A stretch of 64,000 nucleotides of DNA from the NCBI RefSeq assembly GCF_029502005.1, contig NZ_JAMQOT010000008.1, positions 62,001 to 126,000 of the forward strand, in the 5' to 3' direction. The DNA comes from Natrinema salsiterrestre. Lineage in GTDB: Archaea > Halobacteriota > Halobacteria > Halobacteriales > Natrialbaceae. Shown here piece by piece: positions 6,057-39,690 of this stretch (the stretch's first letter is position 1; each line of letters begins with the position of its first letter). The position numbers and the translations under genes are program-made. The notes below the pieces were generated by a model that worked only from the letters and a program-made list of their open reading frames with translations, made no database searches and was not told where the DNA came from.

Positions 6057-7934
6057 TTACTCGTCCGTGTCCCAGACGTCCGCGAGCGGACTCGAGCGGG
6101 AGGACCGACCGGATCGACTCGACCGCGACGACGACCGGCCGTCGCTCCCGCCGCCGGAGTCCGTCCCGCTCGCTCGGTTCCGGCGCGACGACCCCGTTTC
6201 GGACCCGGCTTTCGTCCGTCCGGTCGAGCCGGACGCGGCGTCACCGAGCGCGGCCCGCGGCTCGAACGTCGGCAGATCCGGCCGAGACATGCGGTCGACC
6301 TGCGCCTCGAACCACTCGGGCATGTCCGTCCGAGCGCGATCGAAGCAGTCCACCAGACTCGAGTCCGCCAGATACGTCGCGCCGTAGTCGTCGGGGGCGC
6401 GGACGACGCGACCGCAGGCCTGAATGACGGTCCGGAGCGTCGTTCGGTAGTACCAGGCCCACTGACCCTCCTCGAGGCGGTGGGCGACCCGCGAGTCGCC
6501 GGTGTTGAGAAACGGCGCTTTGCAGATGACCTGCCAGCGACAGAGATCGCCCTTGAGGTCCAGCGCCTCCTCCATCTTCACCGAGAGGAAGACGTCGGGG
6601 TCGTCGCTGGCTTTCCACGCGTCGAGCGCCGCGTCGCGGCCGTCGCGGTCGTGGGTTCGGATCCGGTCGCCGACGCCGAAGTCGGTCAGGAGGTCGGCGA
6701 GTCGCTCCTGAATGTCGTAGGAGTGGGCGTGGATCAGTCCCTTCTCGTCGGGGTGGTGTTGCATGAGTCGGACGATCGTGCGGGCGATCTTCGGCGTCGT
6801 CTCGTCGCGCTCCTCGTAGGTCATCTTCCCCTGCGTGACGTCGTACAGCGGCCGGTTCTCGACGGGGAAGGTGTGGTCGACGTCCACCAGGGCGACGCTG
6901 TCGGGATCGAGCCCGACCTGCCGACAGAAGGCCTCCTTGTTGAGGATCGTCGCCGACAGCAGGGCGAACTTGTTGCCCCGGTCCCAGACGGTGTGCTGGA
7001 GGTACTTCTCGGGGTTCATCGGCTTGATCGTCAACGGACCGCCCTGCGGTTCGTCGCCGTCGTCGCTCCCGTCGGCGGCGTCTCGAGCGCGCTCGGACTG
7101 ATCGACCAGCCACGTCGTCGGGCTCTGGGGGTCGCGGTAGTCCGAGACGAACCACTCGAGTTCGCCGATGAGCTCCTGGAGGCGGTCGCGTTCGCGCACG
7201 TCGGCGGGCGAGAGCGCGTCCTGTGCGAGCAGATCGTCCTTACGACGCGTGCAGGTCTGTGCGAGGCTGTCGGCGTAGCGGACGGCTCGTTCGACGTCGT
7301 CCACCTCGGGAATCCGAAGGTCGTCCCAGAAGGGGACGGTTCGCGGTCCCAGTTGAATGGTCGCGTACATCTCGGCCCACTCCGCGAGGCCGTGGGCCTC
7401 GTCGACGACCACGACGTCGCGTTTGCGGAAGACCTCGCTCCCGGCGGTCTGCATGAAGTAGGCCAGCGTCATCGCCGCGATTTCGCGGTTCGAGGCGATC
7501 GCACGGTCGGAAAAGTACGGACAGCGGTGTTTGACCGAACAGTCGTAGCCGCGCTCTCGCACACAGGGGGCCTGGTTGACCGGCGTCTCGCGCTCCTCCG
7601 GCAGGATGCAGGTGTAGTTCGACTTCCCGCGGATGACGTTGAGATCGGCCAGCAGGTCGTCGGCCGCGACGTCGTCCAGCTGGGAGACCTGCGGCGTCGT
7701 ATAATACGCGCCCGTGGCGTCGCTCGGATCGCCCTCGTCGGCCCGTCTGGCGCAGCCGGCGACGGCGCGGGCCAGCAGGGACTTGCCGCTCCCCGTCGGC
7801 GCGCGAACGAGCACGACGTCGTTGTCGGCCGCGAAGGCGTCGCGAATGTCGCGGAGGGCCTGCTGTTGGGTCCCCCGGTAGCTCGGCGCGGGGAACTCCT
7901 CGAAGATCCGCTCGGGATTCACCGTTCGACTCAC
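6057..7934 (-). CDS. XPD/Rad3-family Fe-S ATP-dependent DNA helicase
   Basis: A 625-residue superfamily 2 helicase, presumably a 5'-3' DNA helicase for repair. Walker A APTGSGKS is at 45-52 and the DEAH box at 178-181. Four cysteines between them (C109, C124, C132, C138) match the 4Fe-4S domain of XPD/DinG proteins. The C-terminal half holds the second RecA domain, including SVKMEEALDLKGDLCRW and ACGRVVRAPDD. The last roughly 70 residues are a serine/arginine/glycine-rich low-complexity tail, odd for an otherwise acidic proteome. It stands alone and converges on the small peptide gene. Whether it is the XPD orthologue or a DinG-like paralogue is not settled by sequence alone. Confidence 0.9.
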   Translation of the reverse strand: MSRTVNPERIFEEFPAPSYRGTQQQALRDIRDAFAADNDVVLVRAPTGSGKSLLARAVAGCARRADEGDPSDATGAYYTTPQVSQLDDVAADDLLADLNVIRGKSNYTCILPEERETPVNQAPCVRERGYDCSVKHRCPYFSDRAIASNREIAAMTLAYFMQTAGSEVFRKRDVVVVDEAHGLAEWAEMYATIQLGPRTVPFWDDLRIPEVDDVERAVRYADSLAQTCTRRKDDLLAQDALSPADVRERDRLQELIGELEWFVSDYRDPQSPTTWLVDQSERARDAADGSDDGDEPQGGPLTIKPMNPEKYLQHTVWDRGNKFALLSATILNKEAFCRQVGLDPDSVALVDVDHTFPVENRPLYDVTQGKMTYEERDETTPKIARTIVRLMQHHPDEKGLIHAHSYDIQERLADLLTDFGVGDRIRTHDRDGRDAALDAWKASDDPDVFLSVKMEEALDLKGDLCRWQVICKAPFLNTGDSRVAHRLEEGQWAWYYRTTLRTVIQACGRVVRAPDDYGATYLADSSLVDCFDRARTDMPEWFEAQVDRMSRPDLPTFEPRAALGDAASGSTGRTKAGSETGSSRRNRASGTDSGGGSDGRSSSRSSRSGRSSRSSPLADVWDTDE

Positions 7935-36368: not shown

Positions 36369-36382
36369 TTAGGGGTGCCTAA
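36369..36382. promoter_or_regulatory. DtxR/IdeR-like iron box 1
   Basis: TTAGGGGTGCCTAA is a perfect 5-bp inverted repeat (TTAGG-N4-CCTAA) of the type bound by iron-dependent DtxR-family repressors, including haloarchaeal Idr proteins. It lies just upstream of a TATA-like box. Confidence 0.65.
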
Positions 36383-36403
36383 AATTCGGTGGGCTTATTA
36401 CGT

Positions 36404-36419
36404 TTTAGGCAGACCTAAA
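36404..36419. promoter_or_regulatory. DtxR/IdeR-like iron box 2
   Basis: TTTAGGCAGACCTAAA is a perfect 6-bp inverted repeat with a 4-bp centre, matching the same operator class as box 1. The centres are 36 bp apart. The two boxes flank the TATA-like GCTTATTACG (about 36393-36402), well placed to block transcription of the downstream operon when iron is plentiful. Confidence 0.7.
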
Positions 36420-36559
36420 CAATAACAGATCCGTCGACGGGAGTGCGGACGGGGAACGCAACGATCGAGCCGGGAAACGAACCGTGGAATCGAACGCAGT
36501 TGGGAGATTCGACGGCAGCCCGCACGCGGCCCGCGACGGACCGAACGAGAGAGATACCC

Positions 36560-37474
36560 ATGGTTGGAACCACGCTCCGCGAAATTCGCCATCACATCGA
36601 ACGATTGGCCAGCGACGGCGGGGAGTACTACGTCGTCTGCGGTCGCTCCGGAGAACGACCCGTCCCGGTCGCCGGTCACCAGTTCGCGACCCGGACGGAC
36701 GCGGCGGACGCCGCACGGGCGACCGAACAGTATCGGGCCGCACTCAGACGGTACGATCCGCAGTTACCGTTTTACGCTCCGATCGTGACACAGGAACGGT
36801 CGTCACGTACGGGACCGAGCACCGATCGCGGCTCGGATCGACCGGCCGCGGAACCCACCGGCGGGCCGTCGGTCGATCGGGAGCAACCGATCGGCGAGGA
36901 CAATCCGCTGATCAGTTTCTGCCACGACGTCTCTGGAGCCGTCTTCGAGTCACTCTCTGCCCGCGATCACGCGGACGCCGAACGAGCGATCATGGAGACG
37001 TATCTGGCCGCAGCGGAAGCGACGACCGACCGGAACACGCTCTGTCTGGTACTGCTCGAGACCATGGCCGCCGAACTCGAGGAGCGGCTGAACGCGACGG
37101 AACGGACGGCGCTCCTGCGGGCGGCAGCGGCGAACCTCTCGCCGGTCGAGCCGGCAGACGATCCGGTCGAAGCGAGCCTCGCTTTTCTGGATTCGCTGTC
37201 GCTGGTGCGGGACTACGGCATCACGCGTGATTCGGACGCGACGACGGGAGACGCCTGGACCGTCTCCATCCGAGGATATGCGATCGAGTGTGGGACACAG
37301 CGGTTCCCGACGCTCCCGCTCGGAATCGACATCCTGCGCCGAACGGACGCGCCGACCGCACCCCTCGGCGTGACCGACGTGACCGCACTCGGCGACGGCG
37401 ATTGGCAGTTCGTCCTGACGGGCGACGTGGAGACGACGGGCGGACTGGTCTGTACCCGGAGGGCAGACCAATGA
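36560..37474 (+). CDS. Unknown haloarchaeal protein, probably iron-regulated (DUF7551/DUF7552-like)
   Basis: A 304-residue acidic cytoplasmic protein. The first 80 residues (from MVGTTLREIRHHIERLASDG through YYVVCGRSGERPVPVAG) form a small domain seen in haloarchaeal proteins I loosely associate with DUF7552. After a disordered linker (about 85-120) the rest is helical and then beta-rich. There are no metal motifs or membrane helices. The ATG at 36560 is preferred; a GTG at 36443 would add 39 low-quality residues. It overlaps the next gene by four bases (ATGA). The tandem iron boxes upstream suggest expression under iron limitation. Function unknown. Confidence 0.75.
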   Translation: MVGTTLREIRHHIERLASDGGEYYVVCGRSGERPVPVAGHQFATRTDAADAARATEQYRAALRRYDPQLPFYAPIVTQERSSRTGPSTDRGSDRPAAEPTGGPSVDREQPIGEDNPLISFCHDVSGAVFESLSARDHADAERAIMETYLAAAEATTDRNTLCLVLLETMAAELEERLNATERTALLRAAAANLSPVEPADDPVEASLAFLDSLSLVRDYGITRDSDATTGDAWTVSIRGYAIECGTQRFPTLPLGIDILRRTDAPTAPLGVTDVTALGDGDWQFVLTGDVETTGGLVCTRRADQ

Positions 37475-38280
37475 CCGGATCGACGGCCGTCCATCGGGCA
37501 CTGGAACGCCTCGACGAGGAACGGGACGCCGTCGCGGAGCGCGGAGCGGCGTTCGAAGCGTTCTCGACGCGCGTTCGGGAGCTCCCGGCAGCGAGCCCCG
37601 GTCCGACAGGGGATCGACGGCCACCGATGGCATCACCGACGGCGATGGCACCGCCGATTCAGACGCAGCGATCGGCACCGTCCCCGTCGGAAAGCCATTG
37701 TGTCACCGTTCGAGAGGCGTTCGATGAAATCGTCCAACCGCACAGCACCGCCGATATCGACACTGACGAATCGCTCGCGGAAACGATCGCAGCGGAACTG
37801 AACGAGGATATCGCCGTCGCGCTGGCGACGGAAACCGGCTGGACGCCGTCACTCAAAGCCGCCGTCCTCGAGGAGACCGCGACCAGACGGCGAGAGGTGA
37901 CGGTGCTCGAGGAGACCCTCCGAGACGAACGGCAAACGCTTGAGGCGGCGATCGACGAGGTCGACGAGATCGTCGCGTGGCTGCGGTCGACCGCCGACGA
38001 ATCGCTCCTGCAGTGTGACTTCGACCGGCTCGAGGGGAAACACGAGCAGCTCGAGACCTATCGGGATCGGCTCGAGGAGCTCACGAGCGACCGGCAAACG
38101 CAGCTCGCCGGCTCGACGAACCGCTACGGGCCGGGCGGCACCCGGTATCGAACCATGGTGGAATCCGTCTATTCGGCGTGTCGCACCCGGTATCCGGTCC
38201 TCTCGACTGCGACGCGACTGTACGGCATCTGCGGGGACTGTCAGCGGACGGTTCGGGCACACCTGTCGCGGCGCGTGTAG
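37471..38280 (+). CDS. Coiled-coil haloarchaeal protein (DUF7260-like)
   Basis: A 269-residue protein with helical, charged segments at both ends of a proline-rich linker (about 40-75). Residues about 125-200 form a long coiled coil (TATRRREVTVLEETLRDERQ and onward). A C-terminal segment has CRTRYPVLSTATRLYGICGDC. I associate it from memory with the haloarchaeal DUF7260 family. It is translationally coupled to the preceding gene by ATGA overlap, so the two products probably work together. No catalytic residues are evident. Confidence 0.75.
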   Translation: MTGSTAVHRALERLDEERDAVAERGAAFEAFSTRVRELPAASPGPTGDRRPPMASPTAMAPPIQTQRSAPSPSESHCVTVREAFDEIVQPHSTADIDTDESLAETIAAELNEDIAVALATETGWTPSLKAAVLEETATRRREVTVLEETLRDERQTLEAAIDEVDEIVAWLRSTADESLLQCDFDRLEGKHEQLETYRDRLEELTSDRQTQLAGSTNRYGPGGTRYRTMVESVYSACRTRYPVLSTATRLYGICGDCQRTVRAHLSRRV

Positions 38281-38313: not shown

Positions 38314-38706
38314 TTACTTCGACGGCGTAGACAGTCCGCTCGGGACGAGATCCGAGAGCGAGACGGTGTCGAGGACTTCCCGGATCTCGAGCGGGTCGTC
38401 GGCCGCGGAGACGGTGTCGTGGATGCGGTGCATGCACTCGAGCAGGCCGTCGACGGCGGCCCGCTGGGTCGAAACGCGGCCGATCGATTCGGTGATCGCC
38501 CGATCCGTGAGGAAGTATCGGTAGCGAAGCTCCCAGCACCGGCAGATACCGATCACCGGGTGAGACCGGTCTGCAATCGTGCTCTCCGCGATCAGTTCGA
38601 TCGGTGGGCGGCTGTGTCGATAGACGAACTGGTCGTCGCAGAGTTCGGCGAGCCCCCATCTCGGCGGGAGCGCCTCCCGCGGGATGGGGTCCTGATCAAC
38701 AGCCAT
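38314..38706 (-). CDS. Conserved haloarchaeal protein of unknown function
   Basis: A 130-residue protein, MAVDQDPIPREALPPRWGLA at the start, with the central segment RSHPVIGICRCWELRYRYFL and an acidic helical C terminus. An ATG two codons upstream (38712) is an alternative start. It has the composition of a real haloarchaeal protein, but I cannot name its family or role. It converges on the iron-box operon, 33 bp from its end. Confidence 0.65.
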   Translation of the reverse strand: MAVDQDPIPREALPPRWGLAELCDDQFVYRHSRPPIELIAESTIADRSHPVIGICRCWELRYRYFLTDRAITESIGRVSTQRAAVDGLLECMHRIHDTVSAADDPLEIREVLDTVSLSDLVPSGLSTPSK

Positions 38707-38924
38707 GTACATCGGTATCGCCGAGGGCGGGAGTGTTGGTTCCGCCTGCGAACGCCGGGTCGTATATAGCCGTCCCGTACCGGATCAACGAACTGGGCGT
38801 TCCGGGACGGCCGATTCGAATCGAACCGTACCGCAATTCGTACCCTCGTCCGGACCGGGAGACGAGTTCCCGTCGAGCGAGGCCGATCGTCCGACTTTTG
38901 TCTCCGCTACCGTTGGACTACCGT

Positions 38925-39324: not shown

Positions 39325-39690
39325 ATGAGTACCGAGACCCAGAACGACGGCGACGACCTCGAGGACCGCGTGACGAACTTCCTGCGGCGGAACTTCCCGC
39401 AGATTCAGATGCACGGCGGCAGCGCAGCGATTCAGGACATCGATCGCGAGAGCGGCGAAGTCAGCATCGCCCTCGGTGGCGCCTGCAGCGGCTGTGGGAT
39501 CTCGCCGATGACGATTCAGGCGATCAAGAGCCGGATGGTCAAGGAGATCCCCGAGATCGAGAAAGTCAACGCCTCCACCGGCATGGACGGCGGCGAGGAG
39601 GAGATGGACGGCATGAGTCCGTCCTTCCCCGGCGAGACCGTCGACGACGACGGCGGCGAGGTCGACGAAGGACCCGAAGCACCGTTCTAA
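39325..39690 (+). CDS. NifU-type Fe-S cluster scaffold/carrier protein
   Basis: A 121-residue protein with the C-terminal NifU (Nfu) domain, including MHGGSAAIQDID and the cluster-binding pair C54-C57 in ACSGCGISPMTIQAIK. Nfu proteins deliver 4Fe-4S clusters to apo-enzymes. The last 35 residues are a very acidic tail typical of haloarchaea. It is probably a single gene with its own promoter. Possible clients in this window include the ferredoxin and the Fe-S helicase, but this is not shown. Confidence 0.92.
   Translation: MSTETQNDGDDLEDRVTNFLRRNFPQIQMHGGSAAIQDIDRESGEVSIALGGACSGCGISPMTIQAIKSRMVKEIPEIEKVNASTGMDGGEEEMDGMSPSFPGETVDDDGGEVDEGPEAPF

Follow-up and report, generated by a model that had tools for sequence, protein, structure and literature searches.

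In Natrinema salsiterrestre, two overlapping genes behind a pair of iron boxes probably form an iron-repressed operon for two cytoplasmic proteins that would act together as an accessory module in siderophore-mediated iron uptake. Because the 36-bp spacing of the boxes is kept throughout the genus and relatives of the genes in other haloarchaea lie inside siderophore clusters, the two proteins are very likely helpers of iron uptake. The regulation and the assignment to this pathway are well supported by sequence comparison; the identity of the repressor, the direction of regulation, the formation of a complex and the biochemical step after import we infer, the last of these from gene neighborhood and conserved residues. 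The proposal assigns a function (iron, siderophore uptake) for the first time to three Pfam families that had none. What appears to be new is that these families are linked to siderophore uptake, that DUF7260 has an iron-specific branch and that the twin boxes have a fixed spacing, although published regulon tables may list some of this; the Pfam families themselves are described, and the regulatory scheme is of a familiar type.

Coordinates given without a locus name refer to the window, i.e., the whole stretch of 64,000 nucleotides that was analyzed. Box 1, TTAGGGGTGCCTAA (36369-36382, no strand assigned), is a perfect TTAGG-N4-CCTAA palindrome of the DtxR-family half-site type. On the forward strand it is followed by a putative BRE-like stretch, AATTCGGTGGG (36383-36393), assigned from its position between box 1 and the TATA, and by a TATA-like element, CTTATTA (36394-36400, forward strand), which lies between the boxes and presumably serves as the archaeal promoter. 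Box 2, TTAGGCAGACCTAA (36405-36418, no strand assigned), is also perfect and sits between the TATA-like element and the expected transcription start; with its flanks included, it alone extends to TTTAGG...CCTAAA. The original prediction of two perfect palindromes around a TATA-like box was thus confirmed, with the boxes starting at 36369 and 36405 and spaced by 36 bp. A predicted 5' leader (36420-36559, forward strand) runs up to the first gene, and the motif before its ATG is GAGAGAT, less canonical than the GGAGG-like motif of relatives.

This promoter is conserved. The family of the pair is present in 27 of the 29 genomes of the Natrinema-like genus, and boxes before it are kept in 25 of these 27: 20 have perfect twins 36 bp apart, 2 have twins of the same spacing with one mismatch, and 3 have one box no more than 250 bp from the start, the remaining 2 being diverged copies. 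In the promoter alignment the boxes, the TCGG of the BRE-like stretch (four columns kept throughout the genus) and the TTAT of the TATA-like element (invariant in 13/13 aligned promoters) are fixed, while the N4 spacers within the boxes change; the leader has diverged, with distances from box 2 to the start codon of 23-141 nt in relatives. Boxes and spacing that stay fixed despite a diverged leader and changed N4 letters point to selection acting on the boxes and on their spacing. The absence of boxes from orthologous loci had been named beforehand as an observation that would speak against an iron role; these loci were examined, and the boxes are kept with exact spacing. The explanation that the palindromes arose by chance or have no function is refuted statistically, and we give it a vanishingly small probability: dinucleotide shuffles gave an expectation of 0.00 exact box matches in the window (0/100 shuffles), and the 36-bp spacing holds genus-wide although the flanks have diverged and the N4 spacers have changed.

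Outside the genus the arrangement recurs with slight variation. A spacing of 34-35 bp is found in Halopiger, Halobiforma, Salinadaptatus and Natronolimnohabitans, where box 2 is located at -15 relative to the ATG. Since the ATG of these leaderless relatives comes directly after box 2, transcription is predicted to start right behind this box. When all fetched haloarchaeal loci are considered, box pairs cluster at 34-36 bp, and the TCGGA core of the BRE-like stretch recurs in other twin-box promoters.

The half site of IdeR has the letters TTAGG-N4-CCTAA with a 4-bp spacer (PMC10317159). Our boxes share these half-site letters and the spacer with DtxR/IdeR boxes, and their placement over the promoter fits repression. 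The architecture differs, as the known 19-bp TTAGGTTAGSCTAACCTAA is interleaved and takes two dimers (a half site takes one dimer), whereas here two half sites stand 34-36 bp apart around BRE and TATA. Haloarchaeal DtxR-family iron regulators include Idr1/Idr2 and Idr, SirR and TroR, according to literature cited by PMC11349517. We propose that under iron sufficiency each of the boxes would hold a DtxR-family dimer (Idr-like) loaded with Fe(II), the dimer on box 1 covering the upstream edge of the BRE and that on box 2 covering the stretch from TATA to start. With box 1 just upstream of BRE/TATA and box 2 before the start, TBP/TFB and RNA polymerase would be shut out. At low iron the repressor would come off, and the two genes would be co-produced in step with the FhuD/FhuB/FhuC importers, which have the same promoter.

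A search of the host genome for the same box, as the original prediction had suggested, yielded an iron regulon. The exact pattern occurs at 20 sites genome-wide, and a reversed-pattern control gave 3. At least 11 of the 18 sites outside the window lie at genes for FhuD-type lipoproteins, an FeCD-type permease, Fe(III) ABC components, ferritin/Dps or a DtxR-family protein, as identified by heuristic gene calling on the stretches around the sites plus Pfam. The pair therefore shares its box with known iron genes of its own genome, and two FhuD promoters of this genome carry the 36-bp twin box, without a mismatch in one case and with a single one in the other. The twin TTAGG-N4-CCTAA, 34-36 bp apart around a TATA, is a portable promoter that may be used to find the iron regulon of any haloarchaeal genome.

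One DtxR-family gene lies directly behind a perfect box of its own (G000:C20:515431; locus L027, box at 6432, ATG at 6453, 7-nt gap), adjoins a DpsA-like gene and is a candidate for the self-regulated iron repressor of the genome. Perfect boxes were also seen at genes without an obvious iron role, i.e., an HTH_10 regulator or aldehyde dehydrogenase (L020, 6260), a protein of unclear role (L023, 5983), a cupin (L024, 5802), an unclear gene (L028, 6158) and a methyltransferase (L029, 5900); these genes may belong to the regulon as well. Some DtxR-family proteins are manganese sensors, and the host has at least four clear DtxR-family genes, so the boxes might answer manganese, another divalent metal or oxidative stress through another member of the family, with the two genes serving that response. 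One box does lie near Dps/ferritin genes; most of the boxes, however, stand at genes for the uptake of siderophores or Fe(III), no manganese transporter was seen among them, and we regard this explanation as improbable.

We then turn to the homologues. Among 92 haloarchaeal homologues, a sample that is phylogenetically uneven and partly redundant (some records come from the same species), so that the counts describe a pattern and are not independent trials, 37 have only a box of their own (within about 260 bp), 46 lack one but are in a boxed siderophore operon (siderophore genes within 4.5 kb), 2 have both and 7 have neither; several of these 7 have a box farther upstream or a DtxR gene next door. 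Recurrent location with FhuD/FhuB/FhuC was found, siderophore genes accompanying 48 of the 92. In a set that covers the class more evenly, FhuD was found close to 22 of 39 DUF7551 loci, compared to 0 of 20 arbitrary control regions (p = 7.5e-6). On a Halobellus limi plasmid, the order is HEAT, NAD(P)/FAD oxidoreductase, FhuB, FhuC, two FhuD and an FAD protein, then the pair; homologues on plasmids of Halobacterium hubeiense and Halosolutus are in or adjoin siderophore clusters, and that on a Haladaptatus plasmid adjoins genes for a DtxR protein, an Fe(III) ABC transporter, dpsA and ferritin. Haloarchaeal siderophore operons (FhuD, the FeCD permease FhuB, the ATPase FhuC, NAD(P)/FAD oxidoreductase, HEAT) have the same box and twin spacing and contain homologues of gene 1 and often of gene 2, whereas in the genus studied here the pair forms an operon by itself, which has a promoter copy of its own and is located far away from the transporters. 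A HEAT-repeat protein recurs by twin-boxed siderophore operons of several families (L022, 12013-13050, reverse strand; L128, L129, L162, L168, L184).

The families are widespread: of 392 haloarchaeal genomes, 218 have DUF7551 and 321 the broader DUF7260, i.e., over half and about four fifths of the genomes sampled, and Haloferax volcanii is among the species with members. DUF7551 went undetected in 174 of the 392 genomes, which argues that it is not essential for haloarchaeal iron uptake. Nor is the pair obligatory, since many Halorubrum operons have gene 1 with gene 2 undetected.

The first gene runs from the ATG at 36560 to the TGA at 37474 (forward strand) and encodes a soluble protein of 304 aa and pI 4.6, whose start, MVGTTL, is conserved. 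It comprises DUF7552 (aa 5-79; E 9.5e-34, 116 bits against a curated cut-off of 27) and DUF7551 (aa 117-299; E 6e-61, 206 against 52.6). The second, from the ATG at 37471 to the TAG at 38280 (forward strand), encodes a protein of 269 aa and pI 4.9 that belongs over its full length to the iron-linked branch of DUF7260 (E 3.9e-69, 233 bits against 27). Both gene products are thus clear members of these families, above cut-off across the full domains. As predicted from the letters of the DNA, the proteins are acidic and their genes are coupled by an ATGA overlap (37471-37474). The accompanying statement that they have no known motif came close: Pfam assigns them no function, but they do match DUF7552, DUF7551 and DUF7260. 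The suggestion of an undescribed part of iron homeostasis is strongly supported in its iron reading, in silico, by the conserved boxes, the box regulon and the homologues in siderophore operons; the proteins are not orphans, as they belong to described Pfam families and one of these, DUF7551, is found in more than half of the genomes, as given above. NCBIfam has no fitting model for either protein, and no mention of DUF7552, DUF7551 or DUF7260 was found in the literature searched. Stand-alone DUF7552 proteins were seen beside FhuD or boxes (L081, 6033-6545, reverse strand; L105, 7204-7926, reverse strand; L122, 3926-4306, forward strand; L235/L236), suggesting that DUF7552 by itself could be an iron-linked domain of wider occurrence.

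Structures of both proteins were predicted with confidence by AlphaFold from an input alignment that left out two plasmid-collection rows. The gene 1 model (pLDDT 86) was compared by Foldseek, and its top 7 matches were all H-NOX heme domains (probability 0.96-0.98), although the matches are weak (E 5e-3 to 1.7e-2, target TM 0.41-0.45). DUF7551 weakly resembles H-NOX (HNOB, PF07700) in these best fold matches, in its similar size (about 185 aa) and in the order of helices followed by a sheet; it differs in its weak scores, in the lack of profile similarity and in having no apparent proximal heme His. Specifically, hhalign of the gene 1 profile against haloarchaeal H-NOX gave a probability of 0.2, i.e., no sequence-profile similarity, a Pfam scan of gene 1 did not match HNOB, and the predicted helix at aa 252-260, the supposed heme-ligand helix by an equivalence that is itself a weak structural match, contains no His. 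Membership of DUF7551 in H-NOX was rejected after the profile comparison; what stays is a hint, at the level of the modeled fold, that the two may be related. When the profiles of both families were searched against the sequences of solved structures, nothing usable was returned. The host genome has three H-NOX (HNOB) genes (G000:C11:558434, C20:348583 and C24:190150), and of the 194 haloarchaeal genomes sampled only 42 have such genes.

The fold matches bear on the reading that the pair is an iron-response regulatory device, in which DUF7551, with an H-NOX/V4R-like ligand-binding fold, would sense an iron-siderophore, heme or gas and, together with its coiled-coil partner, tune a neighboring DtxR-family regulator. 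Besides the 7 H-NOX matches, 8 of 39 loci have a DtxR-like gene close to that for DUF7551, and in several loci it lies directly downstream of the pair. Most loci, however, have no adjacent DtxR gene and are located with transporter genes. The matches themselves (E 5e-3, TM 0.43-0.45), the hhalign result and, as far as the weak equivalence goes, the missing His further weigh against such a sensor, which we consider unlikely.

The conserved residues and the neighboring genes are consistent with a role in the handling of imported iron. Within gene 1, C27, H122 and C162 are invariant across 65 sequences and C121 is 98% conserved. In the iron-linked set of gene 2, H191 is invariant and C77, C254, C257 and H264 are conserved at 88-98%, C254 and C257 forming a CxxC. 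The gene 2 model (pLDDT 84) is helical, with helices at 6-37 and 184-213 and a 50-residue coiled coil at 126-175, which bears out the long coiled coil that had been predicted for one of the proteins; its fold search returned only generic coiled-coil matches (E of 0.29 or higher).

We examined 20 further DUF7260 genes that were not flagged as DUF7551 neighbors. Boxes were found in the loci of 5, and none in those of the other 15. The set of C77, H191, CxxC and H264 is missing from the 15 unboxed paralogues and whole or largely present in the 5 boxed ones; in the one alignment from which the columns were read, C77 is missing from one sequence, and C254 and H264 are missing from another. The family thus divides into an iron-linked branch with these Cys/His residues and an unlinked branch without them, and the residues can be used to mark which DUF7260 members are iron-linked. 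Because the set is specific to one branch, it suggests a metal site.

We know little, to our knowledge as a field, of how iron is released from imported siderophores in archaea; this step is poorly understood. The proposed module would act after import, in the cytoplasm, where both proteins and the regulon's NAD(P)/FAD oxidoreductase would jointly release or handle siderophore iron, the conserved Cys/His of both being candidate metal ligands. An NAD(P)/FAD oxidoreductase was present in 26 of 38 cases with DUF7551 versus 3 of 19 without (p = 2e-4), a hand tally over a partial sample with rows from the same family. The siderophore synthesis genes of Haloferax mediterranei change jointly with those for FhuB, FhuC and the NAD(P)/FAD oxidoreductase (PMC11218638), which supports placing the oxidoreductase in the same program. 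Release or handling of imported iron is the step we prefer, tentatively and at well below even confidence. The pair and the neighboring flavin oxidoreductase are concrete candidates for siderophore iron release in archaea.

The proteins might instead act on the transporter, in FhuBCD assembly or gating, or in siderophore synthesis or export. Gene 1 homologues often come directly after the FhuD or the FAD protein of an FhuBCD operon, as such a role would have it, but some loci (L077/L127) pair the gene 1 homologue with a Sfu-type Fe(III) transporter, and both proteins are soluble and show no sign of a membrane segment or secretion signal; we think this role doubtful, and more so than a sensor. 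A bolder and rather speculative form of the post-import proposal is that DUF7551, its fold being H-NOX-like, joins the iron-linked DUF7260 in a new iron-binding complex. In the cytoplasm this complex would remove Fe from siderophores after their import, using electrons supplied by the flavin oxidoreductase; it would be unrelated in sequence to known siderophore reductases, governed by a two-repressor clamp at the fixed 36-bp spacing and, as sampled, confined to haloarchaea.

The Natrinema pair is not beside transporter genes; its neighbors on the two sides are a PHP gene and a NifU-domain gene. The latter (Nfu-type Fe-S scaffold; 39325-39690, forward strand) is about 1 kb downstream of the pair, and a 132-aa ORF without a Pfam match (38314-38712, reverse strand) lies in between. 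The order RecJ-like DHH, PHP, boxed pair, 132-aa ORF and NifU is the same in 13/13 fully covered loci of Natrinema, Haloterrigena and Halopiger, and the covered part of a 14th locus agrees with it.
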